From Luteimonas sp. 9C (GTDB lineage Bacteria; Pseudomonadota; Gammaproteobacteria; Xanthomonadales; Xanthomonadaceae): a stretch of 64,000 nucleotides of DNA. Below, one piece after another: positions 34,976-51,408 of the stretch. The first letter of the stretch is position 1. Each line of letters begins with the position of its first letter. A program made the translations under genes and the position numbers. The stretch is from positions 186,001 to 250,000 of the forward strand of contig NZ_LR733313.1 in NCBI RefSeq assembly GCF_902506295.1, in the 5' to 3' direction. The notes under the pieces are model-generated. The model made no database searches. It was not told the DNA's origin and worked only from the letters and a program-made list of their open reading frames with translations.

Positions 34976-36147
34976 GGCACGGCGACCGGGTAGGACCCGA
35001 GCACGCGGACCTCGCCGGCGAACGCATCGATCTCGCCCAGTGCATCCTTCAGCGGCGATTCGTCGACGTGGCCGTTGACCTCGATGAAGAACGCGTACTG
35101 CCAAAGCGCACCGTGCGCGGGGCGCGATTCGATGCGGTTCATGCTGATGTCGCGACGCGCCAGCGGCTCGAGAATGCGGTACAGCGCGCCCGGCTGGTCG
35201 CGGATGAACACCATCAGCGAGGTGCGGTCGTTGCCCGACGTCGGGAACGCGCCGCGGCCGATCACCAGGAAGCGCGTGGTGTTGTCGCTGCGGTCCTCGA
35301 TCGGGCCGGCCAGCACCTGCATGCCGTAGACGTGCGCAGCGTTCTCGCCGGCGATCGCCGCCGCGTCATCGGACTTCTTCGCCCGGCGCACGGCCTCGGC
35401 ATTGCTAACCACCGCGTGTTTCTCCACGCCCGGCAGGTTCTCGCGCAGCCACTGCTTGCACTGCGCCAGCGACAGGCCGTGCGAATACACGCGCTCGATG
35501 TCCTCGATACGACCCGTGCGCGACAGCAGGTACTGGTGCACGCGCAACTCGACCTCGCCGCATATCTTCAGCGGCGAGGTCAGGAACATGTCGAGGGTCG
35601 ACTGGATCGTGCCCTGCCCCGAGTTCTCGACCGGCACCACGCCGAAGTCGGCATTGCCGGCCGCCACCTCGTCGAAGACTTCCTCGATGCTCGCCAGTGG
35701 CAGACCCTTGGCCGAGTGGCCGAACTGCTTGTGCACGGCCTGCTGGGAGAACGTGCCTTCCGGGCCGAGGTAGCCGATTTTCAGCGGCTCCTGCTGGGCG
35801 AGACAGGCCGACATGATCTCGCGGAACAGGCGTACGAGCTCGGTGTCCGACAGCGGACCGTCGTTGCGGTCGACGACGCGCCGCAGCACCTGTGCTTCGC
35901 GCTCGGGCCGGTAGTAATCGACTGCCGCGGCGAGCTTGCCCTTGGCCTTGCCGACCTGGCGCGCGAACTGCGCGCGCTCGGCGATCAGCGTCTGGATCTG
36001 GTGGTCGATGCCGTCGATCTGCGCGCGCACCGCATCGAGGTTCGGCTTGGCGACGCCTGCCGTTGCAGCGGCCTTCACCGCGTCGACCTGCTGGGCGGGC
36101 GGCTTCTTCGTCCGCGCGGCCGACACCTTCTTCTTCGAATCAACCAT
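34972..36147 (-). CDS. pheA: Bifunctional chorismate mutase/prephenate dehydratase
   Basis: Makes phenylpyruvate from chorismate. The 391 residues have a Lys/Ala-rich N-terminal extension (about 1-30), a chorismate mutase helix bundle (about 35-125; [22 protein letters not shown]-type region), the dehydratase domain ([15 protein letters not shown]; the catalytic Thr region NTTRFLVIG) and a C-terminal ACT domain ([17 protein letters not shown]) for phenylalanine feedback, including the ESRP motif. The start at 36147 overlaps the serC end by 8 nt, and the stop overlaps aroA, so all three are coupled. Confidence 0.96.
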
Positions 36148-41114: not shown

Positions 41115-42344
41115 ATGCTGTCGTTGCATCCCGCCCGGCACCGTCGCACACGCACGTCGACCCGCGCGCCGAAGATCGGCCTGGCCATCGCTGGCGGCGG
41201 TCCCATCGGCGCCATGTACGAACTCGGCGCGCTGCGGGCGCTCGACGAAGCGCTCGACGGCCTCGACCTGACCCGGCTCGACAGCTACGTGGGCATCAGC
41301 AGCGGCGCATTTCTCGCCGCGGGGCTCGCCAACCGCCTCGATGTCGAAGAGATGTGCCGCGCGTTCATCACCGGCGACAGCGACGATCTGGCGTTCCGGG
41401 CCGAGGATTTCCTGCGTCCGGCCTTCGGCGAGTACGCGCGCCGCATCGGCGGGTTGCCGCGGTTGGCGCTGGACTGGAGCCGTGCGCTGCTGCCGGGCGC
41501 GACCCGGCCGGCGCTGTTCGGTGGCGCCGTGCCGACCGGCGTGTTCGACAACCGCGGCGTCGAGCGCTTCCTGGCCGACGTGTTCTCGCGCCGCGGGCGC
41601 AGCAACGATTTCCGCGCACTCGAGGCCGCGTTGCACGTGGTGGCGGTGGACCTCGACAGTGGCGAGGCCACGGTGTTCGGCAGCGAGGATCACGCGAAAG
41701 TACCGATCTCGCGCGCGGTGCAGGCCAGCGCTGCCCTGCCCGGCCTGTATCCGCCGGTGCGCATCGACGGCCGCGACTATGTCGATGGCGCGCTGCGGCG
41801 GACAATGCATGCGTCCGTCGTGCTGGAGCGCGACATCGACCTCATGCTGGGCCTCAATCCGCTGGTGCCCTACAGCGACCGTCCGGACGGCGCCGCACCG
41901 CGCAGGCGCCGCAGTCGTCCCCTTGCCGATGGCGGGCTGCCGGCGGTGCTCTCGCAGACCTTCCGCACCCTGCTGCAATCCCGCATGCAGGTCGGGCTGG
42001 CGAAGTACGCGCAGCAATACCCGGACGTGGACCAGCTGGTGTTCGAACCCGGCGAAGGGGCCTCGGAACTGTTCTTCCTCAACGCCTTCAGCTTTTCCAC
42101 CCGGCACCGGGTGTGCGCGCTCGGCTACCGGCAGACACTCGATGATCTGCACGCGCGCGAAGCCGAGCTCGCGCCGGTACTGGGCGCGCACGGCATCCGC
42201 CTGCGCCCGGACATCGTCGCCGACCTCGAACGCACCCTGCTCGACGGCCTGCCGCCGCGACGCACCCGGCGGACCGAAACCACGGCCCGCCTGCACCGCG
42301 CGCTCGACGACGTCGAGCGCCTGATCGACACGCCACCGCGCTGA
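41115..42344 (+). CDS. Patatin-like phospholipase
   Basis: A 409-residue serine acyl hydrolase of the patatin/RssA type. The oxyanion loop is GGGPIGAMYELGAL (about residues 23-36), the nucleophile elbow GISSG follows (about 60-64), and the catalytic Asp is in DYVDGALRR (about 224-228). There is no signal peptide, so it probably acts on cytoplasmic or inner-leaflet lipids. The start at 41115 is preceded by a TAGACT hexamer at 41093 and only ~10 nt of leader; the longer frame overlaps the divergent gene. Its neighbours are a PHA-system protein and a phasin, so granule or membrane lipid turnover is a reasonable guess. Confidence 0.88.
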   Translation: MLSLHPARHRRTRTSTRAPKIGLAIAGGGPIGAMYELGALRALDEALDGLDLTRLDSYVGISSGAFLAAGLANRLDVEEMCRAFITGDSDDLAFRAEDFLRPAFGEYARRIGGLPRLALDWSRALLPGATRPALFGGAVPTGVFDNRGVERFLADVFSRRGRSNDFRALEAALHVVAVDLDSGEATVFGSEDHAKVPISRAVQASAALPGLYPPVRIDGRDYVDGALRRTMHASVVLERDIDLMLGLNPLVPYSDRPDGAAPRRRRSRPLADGGLPAVLSQTFRTLLQSRMQVGLAKYAQQYPDVDQLVFEPGEGASELFFLNAFSFSTRHRVCALGYRQTLDDLHAREAELAPVLGAHGIRLRPDIVADLERTLLDGLPPRRTRRTETTARLHRALDDVERLIDTPPR

Positions 42345-42415: not shown

Positions 42416-43003
42416 ATGGCCACGTTCAAGAAGACCGCCAAGAAAGCCACCAAGAAGACCGCGCCGCGTTCGAGGTCCGCCAAGAGCGACGCTGCCGGCG
42501 GCGAGGCGCTGTCGAAGTCGATCAGCGAATCCGCGCAGCAGATCTGGCTGGCGGGCGTCGGCGCCTTCGGCCGCGCGCAGGCGGAAGGCACGCGCCTGTT
42601 CGATGGCCTGATGAAGGAAGGCGCGAGCCTGGAGAAGACCGCGCGCGCCTACGCCAACACGCGCGCGGGCACGGTCCGCAACGTGGTCGAGACCGGCGTC
42701 GGCCAGACCCGTGATCGCGCGGCCGACACCTGGGATCGCCTGGAGAAGGTGTTCGAGGACCGCGTGCAGCGCGCACTCGTCAAGCTCGGCGTGCCGGGCC
42801 GCGACGACGTGCAGTCGCTCAGCAGGCGCGTCGATGCGCTGACCGCGGCCCTGCAGGCCAGGAAGGCCGCCCCGGCGCGCAAGGCGGCGAAGGCGCCGGC
42901 GAAGAAGACCACCGCAAAGAAGTCGGCACCGCGCAAGGCGGCGACGCGGACTGCGAAGGCGCCGGCCAAGCGGGCGACGCAGAAGGCGTCGACGGCGGCC
43001 TGA
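42416..43003 (+). CDS. Phasin-family protein with histone-like tail
   Basis: A 195-residue granule-associated protein resembling PhaF/PhaI. A basic start (MATFKKTAKKATKKT) leads into the phasin coiled-coil domain (about 38-135; IWLAGVGAFGRAQAEG and FEDRVQRALVKLGVP), followed by a Lys/Ala/Pro-rich tail of AKAPAKK-type repeats (about 145-195) that in PhaF binds DNA and helps segregate granules. Start chosen by GGAGA 7 nt upstream. It follows the patatin gene by 71 nt. Confidence 0.86.
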   Translation: MATFKKTAKKATKKTAPRSRSAKSDAAGGEALSKSISESAQQIWLAGVGAFGRAQAEGTRLFDGLMKEGASLEKTARAYANTRAGTVRNVVETGVGQTRDRAADTWDRLEKVFEDRVQRALVKLGVPGRDDVQSLSRRVDALTAALQARKAAPARKAAKAPAKKTTAKKSAPRKAATRTAKAPAKRATQKASTAA

Positions 43004-43206: not shown

Positions 43207-44124
43207 ATGACCACGCAGTGGATCGCCGCAATCGGAGTGGCGATCGCCATCGGATCTGCGGCATCGTTCTATTTCCTCACCTTCCAGCGCCGCCGCGACG
43301 AGGCCGCCGCCGGCATCGTCGCGCTGTCGGCGATCTCCTGGCGCGGGTTCATCGGCATGGTGCTGCAGGCCTTGCGTCGCCGGGGGTACGTGCAGGTGGT
43401 GGATCTGCAGGACGTCTCCGGGGACCGCGACTACATGCTCGAGCGCGATGGCGCGCGCTGGCTGCTGTCCTGCAAGCATGCGTCGACGTACGTGCTGGGC
43501 CGCAATGCGGTCCAGGCCCTGTCGAGCGAAGTGCTGCTCAAGAGCGCGGCCGGTGGCCTGCTGGTGACCCAGGGGAGGATCGACGCCGACGCGCGCGGCG
43601 CGGCCGGCAAGCAGCGCATCGAGCTGCTCGACGGCGCGACGCTGTGGCCGGAGCTGCGCGACCTGATGCCGGCCGGCGAACTCGAAGCGATCCGCGCGAA
43701 GACCGGTGACGCGGCCCGCCAGCGCGTCCTGCTGGCCTGGCTGTTCGCACTGCTGGCCGGTGTGGCGACGTATCTGGCGATGCCCGACGCCGCGCCGGCG
43801 GCCAGCGCGACCGTGGCGACATCCACGGCTCCTCCCGCGCCGACTGCGCCGGTCCGGATCGAAGCGCCGCCACCCGCCCCCATCGAGACCCAGCGCAGCG
43901 ATCTGGCGCGCGCGCTCGGCACCCTGCCCGACGTCGACCGCGCGATCTGGGCGACCGGCTCGACGCTGCAGGTCTTCGTCGCCCGCGTGGACGATCAGGC
44001 CAGCGTGGACGCGATCTGCGCGCTGGTGCTGCGTCACCCCGACCTGACCTCGTCCCGCCTGCAGCTCACGCCGCCCGCGAACAGTGGTCAGCCCACCCGT
44101 TTCCTGCAGTGCCGGAGCTTCTAA
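43207..44124 (+). CDS. Membrane-anchored Mrr-like restriction-endonuclease-fold protein
   Basis: A 305-residue protein with an N-terminal membrane span (about 5-25), an Mrr_cat-type domain (about 40-160), a second span (about 176-194), a Pro/Ala-rich linker and a C-terminal domain of about 80 residues. The nuclease-fold core shows RRRGYVQVVDLQDV, then the expected D-(X)n-(E/Q)-x-K site as DYMLERDGARWLLSCKH, in which the E/Q position is Ser and Lys is kept, so activity is doubtful. Membrane tethering argues against a classical restriction enzyme; no methylase is nearby. Function unknown. Confidence 0.7.
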   Translation: MTTQWIAAIGVAIAIGSAASFYFLTFQRRRDEAAAGIVALSAISWRGFIGMVLQALRRRGYVQVVDLQDVSGDRDYMLERDGARWLLSCKHASTYVLGRNAVQALSSEVLLKSAAGGLLVTQGRIDADARGAAGKQRIELLDGATLWPELRDLMPAGELEAIRAKTGDAARQRVLLAWLFALLAGVATYLAMPDAAPAASATVATSTAPPAPTAPVRIEAPPPAPIETQRSDLARALGTLPDVDRAIWATGSTLQVFVARVDDQASVDAICALVLRHPDLTSSRLQLTPPANSGQPTRFLQCRSF

Positions 44125-44144: not shown

Positions 44145-46133
44145 CTACCAGTGCACGCCGCGCATCATCGCGGCAAAAGCGATCTGCTCCTGGCTCGGTG
44201 TCTCGTCGCGCAGCGCCGAGCGGTCGCCCTTCGACGCGGCCGAATCGGGGAACAGCTCGAACGCCGTGCTCATGACGATCTCGTAGGCCTTGGGCGCGAC
44301 CGCGTTGACCAGTGCGGCGAACACGCCCAGGCGCGTGGTGATGCGGCTGGGCTTCTCGATGATCGCCTTGACCAGCAACCCGGCCGCCTCGTCCGGGGTG
44401 AGTGTCGGCACGCTGTCGTACATCTTGGTCGGCGCGATCATGGGCGTGGCGACCAGCGGCATGTTGATGGTGGTGAAACTGATGCCCTTGCCTGACAGCT
44501 CGCCCTGCGCGCACCGGCTGAACGCATCCAGCGCCGCCTTCGACGCCACGTAGGCCGAGAAGCGCGGCGAGTTCGCCAGCACGCCGATCGAACTGATGTT
44601 GATGATGTGGCCCTTGCGGCGCTTCGTCATCGACGGCATGAACCCCATGATCAGGCGCAGGCTGCCGAAATAGTTCAGCTGCATGGTGCGTTCGAAATCG
44701 TGGAAGCGGTCGTAGCTCAGTTCGATCGATCGCCGGATCGAGCGACCGGCATTGTTGACGAGGATGTCGACGTGGCCGTGTTCGTCCAGCACCTGCTGCA
44801 CGAGGCGGTCGCAATCGGCGAGATCCGCCAGGTCGGCCGTGTACGCGAACACCTTGCCGCCCGCCTCGCGCATCGCATCGCGCGCGGCGAAAAGTTCCTC
44901 CTCGCGGCGCGCGACGATCACCGTCACCGCGCCGGCCTCGGCCACACGCTGCGCGGTCGCCAGTCCGATGCCCGACGAACCGCCGGTGATCACCACGACC
45001 TTGTTGCGGACCTTGCCCTTGAGCGTGCGGTCGATGAACAGGTCCGGGTCGAGATGGCGCTCCCAGTAATCCCACAGCCGCCAGGCGTAGTCCTCGAGCT
45101 TCGGCACTTCGATGCCGCTGCCGCGCAGCGCGCGTTCGGCCTCGCGGTTGTCGAAGCGCGTGGGATAGGTGATGAACTTCATCACCTGCTTGGGAATGCG
45201 GAAATCGCGCAGCAGCATGCCGACGAAGCGCCGCACCGGCGGCAGCGCGCCGACCGCGCCGCGGATCGACGGCGGCACGAACGCGAACATGCGTGCATCG
45301 AGACGCATCGTCATCTCGGGCGCGTGGCCGGCGCGGCAGAACAGGTTCAGCACCTCGCCCACGCGCAGCGGCTCGGGATCGGTGAGGTGGAAGGTGTGCC
45401 CGTCGAGCCGCGGCTTGTGCGCGATGTGGTCCATCGCATCGGCGACGAAATCCACCGGCACGATATTGATGCGCCCGCCCTCGACGCCGAGCATCGGCAT
45501 CCATGGCGGAAACACGTCGCGCAGCTTCTTGATCAGGGTGAAGAAGTAGTACGGCCCGTCGATCTTGTCGATGGCGCCGGTCTTCGAATGGCCGACCACC
45601 ATCGCCGGCCGGTAGATGCGCCATTTGATGCGCGTCTCGCGGCGCACCAGTCCTTCGGACTCATGCTTGGTGCGCAGGTAGGGATCGTCGAGCCCTTCGG
45701 CTTCGGCGTACATGTCCTCGCGGAAGATGCCCGGATACAGGCCCGCGGCGGCGATGGAACTCGTGTGGTGGAAGCAGCCGGCCTCGAGCGCGGCAGCGAG
45801 ATCGAGCGCATGGCGGGTGCCGTCGATGTTGGCGGTGCGCTGCGCGTCCAGCGACGCGGCCAGGTCGTAGATTGCGGCCAGGTGGAAGAAGTGCTTCACC
45901 TTGCCCTTGAGCGCGCGCAGCTGCGCGGTGGACACCCCGCAACGTTCGGCGGTCATGTCGCCCTCGACGACGACGAAGCGCTTGGCGTCCCAGCCGAGCT
46001 CGCGCGTGAGTGCGTCGAATTTCCTGCGCGAATCCTTGCGGATCAGCACATGGATCGTGCCCTTGCGCCTGAGCAGGTTGCCCACGAGGTGACGCCCGAT
46101 GAAGCCGGTCGCACCGGTCACGAAGTAAGCCAT
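44145..46133 (-). CDS. Two-domain reductase, likely fatty acyl-CoA/ACP reductase (fatty-alcohol-forming)
   Basis: A 662-residue fusion of two Rossmann enzymes. The N-terminal extended SDR (about 1-370) has TGATGFIG (6-13) and a YLRTK active site (Tyr near 152). The C-terminal classical SDR (about 380-610) has TGGSSGIG, NNAG and YVASK (Tyr near 524), followed by a ~50-residue tail. Order and size match the ~660-residue acyl-CoA reductases of Marinobacter that reduce acyl-CoA through the aldehyde to the fatty alcohol. An acyl-CoA-binding protein gene is divergent 141 bp away, which fits an acyl-CoA substrate. Alternative: a generic lipid-modifying SDR fusion. The start at 46133 gives MAYFVTGATG; the frame extends further but without conservation. 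Confidence 0.78.
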   Translation of the reverse strand: MAYFVTGATGFIGRHLVGNLLRRKGTIHVLIRKDSRRKFDALTRELGWDAKRFVVVEGDMTAERCGVSTAQLRALKGKVKHFFHLAAIYDLAASLDAQRTANIDGTRHALDLAAALEAGCFHHTSSIAAAGLYPGIFREDMYAEAEGLDDPYLRTKHESEGLVRRETRIKWRIYRPAMVVGHSKTGAIDKIDGPYYFFTLIKKLRDVFPPWMPMLGVEGGRINIVPVDFVADAMDHIAHKPRLDGHTFHLTDPEPLRVGEVLNLFCRAGHAPEMTMRLDARMFAFVPPSIRGAVGALPPVRRFVGMLLRDFRIPKQVMKFITYPTRFDNREAERALRGSGIEVPKLEDYAWRLWDYWERHLDPDLFIDRTLKGKVRNKVVVITGGSSGIGLATAQRVAEAGAVTVIVARREEELFAARDAMREAGGKVFAYTADLADLADCDRLVQQVLDEHGHVDILVNNAGRSIRRSIELSYDRFHDFERTMQLNYFGSLRLIMGFMPSMTKRRKGHIINISSIGVLANSPRFSAYVASKAALDAFSRCAQGELSGKGISFTTINMPLVATPMIAPTKMYDSVPTLTPDEAAGLLVKAIIEKPSRITTRLGVFAALVNAVAPKAYEIVMSTAFELFPDSAASKGDRSALRDETPSQEQIAFAAMMRGVHW

Positions 46134-46199
46134 CGCATCCCTCCACGGCGCCACGGTGCCGGGCGTCGTTCCCGCGGCTACGGTGCCAGAGCGGGCGAC

Positions 46200-46214
46200 G
46201 GCCGACAATCGGCC
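46200..46214. promoter_or_regulatory. Palindrome between the reductase and ACBP genes
   Basis: GGCCGA, CAA, TCGGCC: exact 6-bp arms with a 3-bp spacer, near the middle of the 141-bp divergent control region. It is a plausible operator for the TetR protein encoded two genes away. Inference only. Confidence 0.35.
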
Positions 46215-46274
46215 CCGGTTGATTCCCCGCGGCGACGATGCTGTGATGACGGCCGGCTCCCGGGAGGCTTCACG

Positions 46275-46532
46275 ATGTCCGATCCGACGCAGGCGTTCGA
46301 AGCGGCCGCGCAACGCGTGCAGGCACTCGAGGCGCGACCCGACAACGACACGCTGCTGCGGCTCTACGGGCTGTACAAGCAGGGGTCGGAGGGCGATGTG
46401 CAGGGGCCGAAGCCGGGCTTCTTCGATTTCGTCGGCACGGCCAAGTACGAGGCCTGGGCGAAGCTGTCGGGCACGGACAGGACTGCTGCGATGCAGCAGT
46501 ACATCGCGCTGGTCGACACGCTCGCCGGCTGA
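46275..46532 (+). CDS. Acyl-CoA-binding protein
   Basis: An 85-residue ACBP: a four-helix bundle that binds long-chain acyl-CoA esters in the cytoplasm. Signature residues: FEAAAQRVQAL, DTLLRLYGLYKQGSEGDV (the YxLYKQ block) and AKYEAWAKLSGT. The start at 46275 has GGGAGG 8 nt upstream. It is 11 nt before the TetR gene, so the two form an operon divergent from the acyl-CoA reductase. ACBPs are common in eukaryotes and scattered in bacteria. Confidence 0.93.
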   Translation: MSDPTQAFEAAAQRVQALEARPDNDTLLRLYGLYKQGSEGDVQGPKPGFFDFVGTAKYEAWAKLSGTDRTAAMQQYIALVDTLAG

Positions 46533-46543
46533 CCGGCGCCTCG

Positions 46544-47170
46544 ATGGCACGCGATACCCGGCAACGGATCCTCGACTGCGCACTCGTGATGTTCAACACC
46601 CAGGGGGAGCCGCGGGTGACGACCAACCACATCGCCGACGAACTCGACATCAGTCCGGGCAATCTCTACTACCACTTCCGCAACAAGGACGACATCATCG
46701 AGCAGCTGTTCGCGGGCTTCGATGCACGCATGGATGCAGCGCTCGTGGTGCCCGACGGCCGGCTGCCGGAGCTGGAGGACATCTGGCTGCAGTTGCACCT
46801 GGTGTTCGAGTGCATCTGGGACTACCGCTTCCTCTACCGCGACCTGCTCGAGATTCTCAGCCGCAACCGGCGGCTGCGCGTGCGCTTCTCGCGCATTCTG
46901 CGCCGCGCCAGCGAACGCGCGCATGCGGTGATCGCAGGGCTGGCGCGGGCCGGGGTCCTGCGCGCGTCCCCCGCGGAAATCGATGCAGCGGCCACGAACC
47001 TCATCGTCGTCGCCACGTTCTGGCTCAACTACAGCGCCGCGCGCGGCGACCGCGACGAACAGGTCGCGATCCGCGAGGGCATCGTGCAGGTGATGATGCT
47101 GCTCTCCCCCGCGTTGCGCGATGCCGAGCGCGTGCACCTCAACGCGCTGGTCCAGGCCTACACCCACTGA
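46544..47170 (+). CDS. TetR-family regulator
   Basis: A 208-residue repressor: N-terminal TetR HTH (residues 5-50, TRQRILDCALVMFN and ISPGNLYYHFRNKDDII) and an all-helical ligand-binding domain with many aromatics (IWDYRFLYRDLLEIL), similar to AcrR/YbiH-like regulators with DUF6285-type tails. It is cotranscribed with ACBP. By position its ligand may be an acyl-CoA or lipid and its target the divergent reductase promoter. Confidence 0.88.
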   Translation: MARDTRQRILDCALVMFNTQGEPRVTTNHIADELDISPGNLYYHFRNKDDIIEQLFAGFDARMDAALVVPDGRLPELEDIWLQLHLVFECIWDYRFLYRDLLEILSRNRRLRVRFSRILRRASERAHAVIAGLARAGVLRASPAEIDAAATNLIVVATFWLNYSAARGDRDEQVAIREGIVQVMMLLSPALRDAERVHLNALVQAYTH

Positions 47171-47201: not shown

Positions 47202-48053
47202 ATGGCCAAGTCCACATGGGCGCCCTGTCCCCACCCGTCCGCCAACTTCGCCTATCCCGGTGACGCCCTGAAGAAGGCCTGGCCGCGCCTGCATGCCGGT
47301 GACGTCGAGCCGTTTCCCGATGCGAAACGTGCGCAGGCGCTGATCGATGCCGCCGGCAAGGCGGCGCCCAAAGGGCTCGATGCCACTGCACTGGCGACCG
47401 CGCTGCAGGACGCCTGGCGGGCGTTCCATGCCGGCGACTTCAAGACCGCGTTCGATGCCGGCAGCGCGCTCGGACCGGTCGGCGCCACCGTCGCGGTGAA
47501 GGCGCTGGGCATCCACGCCACGCACCTGGTGACCTCGGAGTCCGAACAGCTCAAGCGCTACGAGCAGGCCGCCGCGCTGGCAGAGGCCGCGATCGCCGCA
47601 TTGCCCGATGAAGCCAACAGCCACTACCGCCGCGCCTATGCGCTGGGCCGCTACAGCCAGGGCCTGAGCATCGCCAAGGCGCTCAAGCAGGGCATCGCCG
47701 GCAAGGTCCGCGACTCGCTGCACACCGCGCTCGAACTCGCGCCCAGACATGCAGAAGCGCATACCGCGCTGGCGCTCTACCACGCCGAGATTATCGGCAA
47801 GATCGGCGCGATGATCGGCGGTCTGACCTACGGCGCGAAAGCCGCCGAAGCGGAATCGCACATCACGACCGCACTCAAGCTCACGCCGCAGTCCCCGATC
47901 GCCCATATCGAACACGGCAATGTGCTGATGCTGCTCCACGGCGAGAAGAAGGAAACCGCCGCGGCAGCGGCATACGAGAAGGCCGCGGGTCTGAAACCGG
48001 CCGATGCGATGGAAGCGCTGGACGCGGCGTATGCGGCGGAACAGATCGAGTGA
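47202..48053 (+). CDS. TPR-repeat hypothetical protein
   Basis: A 283-residue helical protein with degenerate TPR repeats (about 60-280). Blocks such as LPDEANSHYRRAYALGRYSQ, LELAPRHAEAHTALALYHAE, and ALKLTPQSPIAHIEHGNVLM (landmarks) give the helix-turn-helix periodicity. No signal peptide. It follows the TetR gene by 31 nt and may belong to the same transcript. Start chosen at MAKSTWAPC; the frame extends upstream into the TetR gene. Function unknown. Confidence 0.75.
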   Translation: MAKSTWAPCPHPSANFAYPGDALKKAWPRLHAGDVEPFPDAKRAQALIDAAGKAAPKGLDATALATALQDAWRAFHAGDFKTAFDAGSALGPVGATVAVKALGIHATHLVTSESEQLKRYEQAAALAEAAIAALPDEANSHYRRAYALGRYSQGLSIAKALKQGIAGKVRDSLHTALELAPRHAEAHTALALYHAEIIGKIGAMIGGLTYGAKAAEAESHITTALKLTPQSPIAHIEHGNVLMLLHGEKKETAAAAAYEKAAGLKPADAMEALDAAYAAEQIE

Positions 48054-49529: not shown

Positions 49530-50627
49530 ATGCAACTGTTCAAATGCTCGCACTGCGAGCAGGTGCTGTATTTCGAGAACACCGCATGCCTGCGTTGCGG
49601 CAAGACACTGGGTTTCCTGCCGCAGACGCTGACGCTCGAGGCCCTCGATCTCGATGCCGGCGAGTGGGTCACGCCGGCGCGGCCGGGCGCGCGGTTCAAG
49701 TTCTGTCGCAACGCCTCGCATTCGGCGTGCAACTGGCTGCTGCCGACCAGCGATCCGCACGGCTTCTGCCTCGCCTGCCGGCACAACCGAACGATCCCCA
49801 ATCTGGGCGATGCCGAACGGCTGGCCGACTGGCAGAAGATCGAGGTGGCCAAGCGCCGGCTGTTCTACACGCTGCTGCGCCTGCAACTGCCGACGCCTGC
49901 GCCGGGCAGCGGGGATCCGCAGCCGCTGTCGTTCGATTTCCTCGCCGATCCGAAAACCGGCCCGAAGGTGATGACCGGGCACGACAACGGCCACATCACG
50001 ATCGCGCTCGCCGAAGCCGACGACGCCGCGCGCGAGGCCACGCGCATCGCGATGGGCGAGCTGTACCGCACGCTGCTGGGCCATTTCCGTCACGAGATCG
50101 GCCACTACTACTGGGACCGGCTGGTGCGCGATGCGGGCGAGGACGAGCTCGCGCGGTGCCGCGCGCTGTTCGGCGACGACCGGCGCAGCTACAGCGACGC
50201 GCTGCAGCACTACTACGCGCACGGTGCGCCGGATGACTGGCAGACCGCGCATGTCAGCCCCTACGCGACGATGCATCCCTGGGAGGACTGGGCCGAGACC
50301 TGGGCGCACTACCTGCACATCGTCGACACGCTGGAGATGGCCTCGGCCTTCGGCATCCGCATCGCGCCCGACGTGGCGGACGATCCGTCGATGGAAACCG
50401 ACCTGTCGTTCGATCCGCATCGCGTCGCCGACATTCAGCGTCTGGTCGACGCCTGGTTGCCGCTGACCTGGGCAATCAACAGTCTCAACCGCACGATGGG
50501 TCATCCCGACATCTATCCGTTCGTGATCGCACCACCGGTGGTCGAGAAGATGGCCTACATTCACGGCCTGATCCGTCGCGCGCGCCGCTCGGCGGCGACG
50601 CGACCGGCATCGTCCGCCACGTCCTGA
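49530..50627 (+). CDS. Zinc-ribbon HEIGH metallopeptidase-like protein
   Basis: A 365-residue protein with an N-terminal zinc ribbon (C6-x2-C9 and C20-x2-C23) and further Cys pairs (FCRNASHSACNW, FCLACRH). A metallopeptidase domain follows, with zinc site HEIGH (188-192) followed by YYWDRLV and the third-ligand candidate in WEDWAETWAHY. It belongs to the putative zinc-binding metallopeptidase family (PF15887 type). There is no signal peptide. Operon with the transglutaminase gene upstream. Confidence 0.88.
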   Translation: MQLFKCSHCEQVLYFENTACLRCGKTLGFLPQTLTLEALDLDAGEWVTPARPGARFKFCRNASHSACNWLLPTSDPHGFCLACRHNRTIPNLGDAERLADWQKIEVAKRRLFYTLLRLQLPTPAPGSGDPQPLSFDFLADPKTGPKVMTGHDNGHITIALAEADDAAREATRIAMGELYRTLLGHFRHEIGHYYWDRLVRDAGEDELARCRALFGDDRRSYSDALQHYYAHGAPDDWQTAHVSPYATMHPWEDWAETWAHYLHIVDTLEMASAFGIRIAPDVADDPSMETDLSFDPHRVADIQRLVDAWLPLTWAINSLNRTMGHPDIYPFVIAPPVVEKMAYIHGLIRRARRSAATRPASSATS

Positions 50628-50757
50628 GCGCAGTGTCCACGCGGTGATGAACCGCCGCGTCCCTGGTGTCGCCTTGGACGCACGCGCCGCGCTGCACCAC
50701 AATCACGCCTCCCCAGCGGCCGGCGCCCTGCCTGCCGCGCGTTGCCCCGGAGTGCGC

Positions 50758-51408
50758 ATGACCCTGCGTTTCAGCGAATCCCTGCGCCAGGCCTGCGCGG
50801 TCCACTGGACGCGCGCGGTCGAGCACCGCTTCGTCCGCGAACTCGGCGACGGCAGCATCGGCGACGACGTGATGGCCGGCTACCTGATCCAGGACCACCG
50901 CTTCATCGACAGCTTTCTGGTGCTGCTGGGCGCGGCGATCGCCAGCAGCGACCGCTTCGAATCCAGACTGGTACTGGGCCGCTTCCTCGGCGTGGTGTGC
51001 GGCGAGGAGAACACCTATTTCCTGCGCGCATTCGATGCGCTGGGCGTGGACGTCGACGCCCGGGCCCACGTGCCCGATACCGCACCGACCGCAGGCTTCA
51101 AGGCACTCATGCGCGAAGCCGCGGCCACGCGATCCTATGCCGCGACGCTGGCCGTGCTCAATGTCGCCGAGGGGCTCTATCTCGACTGGGCGCAGCGCGT
51201 GCCGCGTCCCCTGCCCGACAATTTCGTTCTTGCCGAGTGGGTCACGCTGCACGACAACCCGATGTTCGTGGACTTCGTCGCGTTCCTGCGGGCCGAACTC
51301 GATCGCGTGGGACCGGGGGATGCCGCCCGCGCGGACGACTTCTTCAGGCGCGCGGTCGATCTCGAGCTCGCATTCTTCGATGCGGCCTATGCGGACGGCC
51401 ACGCCTGA
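50758..51408 (+). CDS. TenA family protein, TenA_E type
   Basis: A 216-residue all-helical protein of the TenA/thiaminase II fold (ALAEWVTLHDNPMFVDFV-like region, C-terminal LELAFFDAAYADG). At the place of the catalytic Cys of true TenA it has NVAEGLYLDW with E138, so it is the Cys-less TenA_E type, which in plants salvages thiamin pyrimidine by hydrolysis of formylamino- or amino-HMP. The start at 50758 gives MTLRFSESLRQAC. The stop overlaps the next gene (TGATG), so the two TenA-like proteins are cotranslated. Confidence 0.85.
   Translation: MTLRFSESLRQACAVHWTRAVEHRFVRELGDGSIGDDVMAGYLIQDHRFIDSFLVLLGAAIASSDRFESRLVLGRFLGVVCGEENTYFLRAFDALGVDVDARAHVPDTAPTAGFKALMREAAATRSYAATLAVLNVAEGLYLDWAQRVPRPLPDNFVLAEWVTLHDNPMFVDFVAFLRAELDRVGPGDAARADDFFRRAVDLELAFFDAAYADGHA

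Follow-up and report, generated by a model that had tools for sequence, protein, structure and literature searches.

The 64,000-nucleotide stretch analysed here, called the window below, comes from Luteimonas sp. 9C (contig NZ_LR733313.1, positions 186,001 to 250,000), whose genome is 3.35 Mb on two contigs. Within it, the gene of a predicted fatty acyl-CoA reductase (FAR) stands back to back with the genes of an acyl-CoA-binding protein (ACBP) and a TetR-family regulator, and we consider this locus as a possible source of fatty alcohols for wax-ester storage. Its parts are as follows.

44145-46133, minus strand: FAR, a predicted two-domain reductase of fatty acyl-CoA or fatty acyl-acyl carrier protein (acyl-ACP), 662 residues, intact open reading frame; domain 1 (residues ~1-365) is a thioester-reductase-like extended short-chain dehydrogenase/reductase (SDR), domain 2 (residues ~372-620) a classical SDR.
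46275-46532, plus strand: ACBP, 85 residues, intact open reading frame (PF00887).
46544-47170, plus strand: TetR-family regulator, 208 residues, intact open reading frame (PF00440, PF13972).
46219-46247, plus strand: predicted ACBP-tetR promoter, TTGATT (46219-46224), a 17-bp spacer and TGTGAT (46242-46247), with an extended -10 TGC.
46180-46208, minus strand: predicted FAR promoter, -35 box TTGTCG (46208-46203), a 17-bp spacer and an extended -10 TGG-CACCGT (46188-46180).
46200-46214, no strand: the palindrome GGCCGACAATCGGCC, overlapping the predicted FAR -35 box.

An earlier note, made from the sequence alone, had described the reductase as a fusion of two domains with intact nucleotide-binding and YxxxK motifs, and the protein is built in this way. 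The first half carries TGxxGxxG and Y152xxxK156 and is assigned to NAD_binding_4 by Pfam, and the second carries TGGSSGIG and Y528xxxK532 and is assigned to adh_short. The fusion layout is confirmed end to end by NF005539, a two-SDR model that pairs residues 1-662 with its positions 1-657 of 657 at 982 bits, against a cut-off of 549. In the alignment of homologues, G7, G10 and G13 are kept in all 77 rows that cover these positions, while Y152, K156, G384, G388, G390, S515, Y528 and K532 are kept in 80 of 80. R32 and R409 are invariant in the same alignment and occupy positions which, we take it, usually favor NADPH. The first domain reaches 125 bits with the thioester reductase model TIGR01746, below the model cut-off of 213, and its fold is thioester-reductase-like in a structure search. 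The predicted structure is of moderate quality (mean pLDDT 73.8, pTM 0.55), and each of the 50 matches listed by the structure search covers one half or the other, a list that single domains can fill. Among the matches listed, the closest named one is from Lysobacteraceae bacterium PS02340, at 98% identity, and on this match we assign the genome to Lysobacteraceae. In a quick tree of 80 rows, a branch with 99% SH-aLRT support separates the 34 rows labelled as Lysobacterales from the other labelled group; nine rows belong to neither, and the tree includes no verified characterised FAR. The unlabelled, long-branched L119 falls inside the Lysobacterales side. From this tree, FAR looks vertically inherited.

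The obvious point of comparison is Maqu_2507 of Marinobacter aquaeolei/hydrocarbonoclasticus VT8, which we take to be a two-SDR protein of about 661 residues and a member of NF005539. On that assumption FAR shares its layout and has a similar length, and the two are 62% identical when an unverified Maqu_2507 sequence is used. Unlike Maqu_2507, FAR here has a divergent ACBP-TetR operon on one side and phasin and patatin genes on the other. In the available text of two reports, Maqu_2507 is NADPH-dependent and converts acyl-CoA or acyl-ACP into fatty alcohol (PMC7744569, PMC10355004).

The divergent pair named in the earlier note is confirmed by Pfam. ACBP is the sole PF00887 match in the genome (99.9 bits, cut-off 28.3), and all 71 homologues retain its residues Y31, K35, K57 and Y76. 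Through the match ranges of the 1aca row, these align with bovine Y28, K32, K54 and Y73, presumably the ligand residues. The regulator has an N-terminal helix-turn-helix (PF00440, 44 bits) and a C-terminal ligand domain (PF13972, 135 bits). Only 11 bp separate the two genes, which likely belong to the same operon. Linkage to FAR is conserved: in 71 of 80 homologous loci (the best 80 of at least 566 confirmed relatives, taken from species genomes), ACBP and TetR are encoded immediately upstream of FAR, on the other strand. They are not beside it in L035, L039, L045, L052, L053, L055, L059, L060 and L073, of which L045 and L060 are contigs beginning inside FAR. ACBP and FAR occur together in 92 of 149 sampled genomes of the family. 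In the 85 genomes where they share one contig, they are at most 1 kb apart in 75 and at most 5 kb apart in 79; the remaining pairs are separated by ~9-11 kb in five genomes and by 272 kb in one. Two FAR-bearing draft genomes have no ACBP.

The enzyme that would complete the pathway, a wax ester synthase/diacylglycerol acyltransferase (WS/DGAT), was sought in the same genome, as the earlier note had suggested, and a single gene was found, 67 kb from FAR. Its product is over the curated cut-offs, with 406 bits against TIGR02946 (cut-off 310), and carries the HHxxxDG motif as HHCYADG at residue 150. The word “compact” that was applied to the module thus fits FAR, ACBP and TetR, but not the presumed pathway, which needs this distant gene as well. 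FAR is present in 94 of the 149 family genomes and WS/DGAT tracks it: 93 genomes have both, one has FAR only (71% complete), one has WS/DGAT only (85% complete) and 54 have neither (Fisher p 2e-38, relatedness ignored). Three genera (g1, g3 and g20) each include genomes with both genes and genomes with neither, therefore the pattern is not that of one ancient split. Near WS/DGAT in the Luteimonas genome there are also FadB-like and thiolase (FadA-like) genes of beta-oxidation (L091:2096-5771).

Two further genes lie on the other side of FAR.

42422-43003, plus strand: phasin (PF05597, TIGR01837), a conserved FAR neighbor.
41154-42344, plus strand: patatin-like lipase, its start codon being our choice.

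Of 55 full-length loci, 52 have a phasin (141 bits with PF05597 for the one in the window) at most 6 kb from FAR, usually 3' of it, and 46 have a patatin-like lipase at that distance. A strong phasin match is present in every one of the 94 FAR genomes, and in 86 of the 88 where the best match is on the FAR contig it is no more than 5 kb away. Two genomes, G022 and G067, instead have their best phasin ~4 kb from WS/DGAT. Strong phasin matches occur in 95 of 95 genomes having FAR or WS/DGAT, in 29 of 49 having only class III PhaC, a polyhydroxyalkanoate (PHA) synthase, and in none of the five having none of these genes. Like the phasins of PHA granules, the neighbor is a PF05597 protein. Unlike them, the family's copy stays with FAR and WS/DGAT in 10 genomes with no match to a class III synthase, classes I, II and IV not having been searched there. 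Across the family, the presence of class III PhaC is statistically independent of FAR (p 1.0). The Luteimonas genome does have class III PhaC, so its phasin may be purely a PHA protein. In another order, we sampled 29 FAR loci with 1.5-kb flanks from 45 FAR-bearing genomes: phasin adjoins FAR in 18, some of the matches being weak (E ~1e-5), WS/DGAT in 11, both in one and neither in one. By sequence comparison, the same kinds of gene recur near FAR in two orders, in differing arrangements and not everywhere.

In the divergent intergenic region, alignment of 27 short examples reveals four blocks: TGCCAGA and ACAAT on the FAR side (both read on the plus strand in the window), and TTGAC and TGnTGTGATG on the ACBP side. 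This arrangement matches a pair of divergent extended -10 promoters whose -35 boxes face each other. The upstream regions of WS/DGAT, from the Luteimonas genome and 20 others, have TTGAC...GCGTG at the same spacing as at ACBP. Written strictly as TTGAC[ACG]-N11/12-[GC]C[GA]TGNT, the element matches 49 of 71 ACBP promoters and 19 of 21 WS/DGAT loci, in the latter once each and upstream of the gene. It has no match elsewhere in 986,642 bases of related loci; three shuffles gave 1, 3 and 1. Because the pattern was written after both promoters had been seen, its absence elsewhere and a position weight matrix (PWM) trained solely on 30 distinct ACBP sites are the fair tests. With the PWM, the WS/DGAT promoter is the top-ranked site in 18 of 21 loci; in L098 and L102 it comes second, and in L103 it is outside the top two. 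In the Luteimonas genome this promoter scores 19.8, and 400 kb searched elsewhere in that genome contain no strict match and no PWM score above 16.5. Since the element is shared by ACBP and the unlinked WS/DGAT and is absent elsewhere in 0.99 Mb, a common regulon is suggested. Judged from these sequences, co-regulation of ACBP and WS/DGAT is well supported across the family.

The earlier note had pointed to the 15-bp palindrome as a place to test for binding of the regulator. The palindrome is there, in the shared control region, but it is of the kind expected by chance and is not conserved. When the 141-bp region was shuffled 2000 times, 1091 of the shuffles contained a perfect inverted repeat (6-bp arms, loop of 0-9) and 209 contained one whose loop is 3 bases; such a repeat exists somewhere in 40 of 68 other intergenic regions. 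At the conserved core, all six arm pairs of the palindrome itself are kept in none of the 68, 20 of which lack the ACAA core. The best has five of six (L027), and L011, the sister whose FAR is 98% identical, keeps three. The palindrome is therefore rejected as the TetR operator. A dyad, CAAT-N10-ATTG, is present in 14 of 28 de-replicated loci (maximum 6 in 30 shuffles), a real enrichment that is explained by the two -35 boxes facing each other at the same place. No ACAAT block was seen in six loci that lack FAR or have ACBP at a distance from it, and five of these (not L131) retain the shared type of ACBP promoter. The dyad was not adopted as an operator for these reasons, and at WS/DGAT promoters it was not found, save for one loose match in L110. 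No conserved palindromic operator thus emerged from the divergent promoter, and the element shared with WS/DGAT is the better candidate.

Gene content, intact motifs, conserved linkage, co-occurrence and the shared promoter element can be read directly from the genomes. Taken together, they make it quite likely that this locus provides the alcohol in a pathway of wax-ester storage. In the best reading, this would be a regulated module for wax esters, inherited vertically and using known chemistry. FAR would reduce acyl-CoA (or acyl-ACP) to a bound aldehyde and then to a fatty alcohol through its two NADPH-type SDR domains, while ACBP would buffer and deliver acyl-CoA. The unlinked WS/DGAT would join the alcohol to a second acyl-CoA, forming the wax ester. 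The adjacent phasin likely coats the wax inclusions, whose turnover may fall to the patatin-like lipase. TetR is probably transcribed together with ACBP; responding to a ligand of the acyl-CoA type, it would regulate its own operon and, by way of the shared promoter element, the WS/DGAT gene. The activity, substrate and product of the enzyme, the ligand and targets of TetR, and the roles of phasin and lipase are all predictions. Lysobacteraceae are rich in iso fatty acids, and one can go further and imagine a wax-ester organelle of this family: FAR and WS/DGAT would make a wax, probably iso-branched, the phasin would coat it and not only PHA, and TetR would act as an acyl-CoA gauge switching ACBP and the distant WS/DGAT through one element. 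We put this fuller picture forward tentatively, and on balance doubt that it holds as a whole.

Several observations weigh against the wax-ester reading or parts of it. Six of the 149 genomes keep ACBP with neither FAR nor WS/DGAT, therefore ACBP has a role beyond the wax pathway. In both FAR-less loci that were fetched (L126 and L127), TetR still follows ACBP, and the pair is thus the tighter unit. The shared element is lacking at FAR's own promoter. Its strict form is absent from the window, where the ACBP promoter is a degenerate copy (TTGATT) with a PWM score of 12.4, and an unrelated site at 35074 on the plus strand (39 bp ahead of a 380-codon reading frame) reaches 17.1. Co-regulation is accordingly weaker for this strain. 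Elsewhere, scores are no higher than 11.4-12.0 at 11 of the 21 WS/DGAT sites, with the next site in L101 at 11.7, and sites unrelated to ACBP in FAR loci rise to 21.0 (L081), 17.5 (L061) and 16.9 (L084). The shared pattern may merely be that of a strong extended -10 promoter. FAR is rare across a class-wide sample, being present in 12 of 369 genomes, and nine of these 12 loci (L113-L124) have none of the sought genes within ~1.5 kb; ACBP, TetR, phasin or patatin are that close only in L113, L115 and L116. Finally, the unverified Maqu_2507 sequence, used as a query, gave no full-length match above 65% and partial ones of at most 69%; a search for comparators among plasmids returned only two Tsukamurella matches, at 41-42%.

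The first two of these points favor a different division of labor, in which FAR and WS/DGAT cooperate, ACBP-TetR is an independent operon for acyl-CoA homeostasis that merely adjoins FAR, TetR regulates only its own operon, and the element is a common promoter type. The genomes where ACBP lies ~9-11 kb or 272 kb from FAR also speak for it, as does the failure to see any palindrome common to ACBP promoters. Against it stand the spacing of at most 5 kb in 79 of the 85 same-contig genomes and the confinement of the strict element to ACBP and WS/DGAT promoters. This alternative is a serious one, although we lean away from it. Less probable, and in our view unlikely, is that FAR alcohols serve a purpose other than wax, such as a surface lipid or alcohol secretion, and that WS/DGAT mainly makes triacylglycerol. 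WS/DGAT enzymes are often bifunctional and the two genes are 67 kb apart here, but 93 of the 95 genomes having either gene have both, and WS/DGAT adjoins FAR in 11 of the 29 loci of the other order. That FAR is an SDR fusion acting on something other than an acyl thioester is highly improbable: NCBIfam names NF005539 merely “SDR family oxidoreductase,” but the first domain resembles thioester reductases in fold and by its sub-threshold TIGR01746 match, the context is one of lipid storage, and in the available text of one study, SDRs that lie near WS/DGAT and share 49.5-61.9% identity with Maqu_2507 are regarded as fatty acyl-CoA reductases (PMC10351704).

In the text just cited, betaproteobacterial and gammaproteobacterial sediment scaffolds have ACBP adjoining WS/DGAT together with these FAR-like SDRs, and one other scaffold has a phasin (PMC10351704). 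The gene kinds are those found here, but in Luteimonas WS/DGAT is unlinked from FAR and ACBP is paired with a TetR gene, a term absent from the main text of the paper. Mycobacterial FCR1 (Rv3391), from a lineage distant from this organism, is a 650-residue reductase 40% identical to Maqu_2507 over 639 residues and is said, in the portion available, to convert acyl-CoA by reduction into aldehyde and alcohol (PMC3522743). The earlier note held that such a module is not commonly recognised in this lineage, and the PubMed Central literature, which covers few subscription papers, agrees: no report of wax esters in Xanthomonadaceae, Lysobacteraceae or, judging by titles, Lysobacter was found there. 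Nor do the titles listed there on Xanthomonas fatty acyl-CoA reductase, or on phasin and wax ester, include a report of the module, its TetR or the shared element. A search by phrase for bacterial ACBP also found no paper there. One survey, as far as its available text goes, places WS/DGAT sequences with Xanthomonadales (PMC10351704). The gene kinds and chemistry are known, and this arrangement in Lysobacteraceae is apparently unreported, our searches having found no report. If the reading is true, many members of a large family store wax esters, their genes gain a candidate regulator, a bacterial ACBP gains a physiological partner, and the phasin becomes a candidate coat for wax inclusions. 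Enzymes for branched fatty alcohols and waxes would also be on offer.

The remaining neighbors are these.

47202-48053, plus strand: tetratricopeptide-repeat protein downstream of TetR, in 32 of 55 full-length loci.
43207-44124, plus strand: Mrr_cat-domain protein in the phasin-FAR interval, in 26 of 55 full-length loci.

The Mrr_cat protein (restriction-endonuclease-like) is probably a bystander. It is poorly conserved, at 27-47% in relatives except the sister, yet the slot is often retained, and in L126 ACBP comes directly after the Mrr_cat gene, as though FAR had been cleanly lost. Further along the window, at 49530-51408, a Peptidase_Mx zinc metallopeptidase adjoins a TENA/THI-4 family protein.

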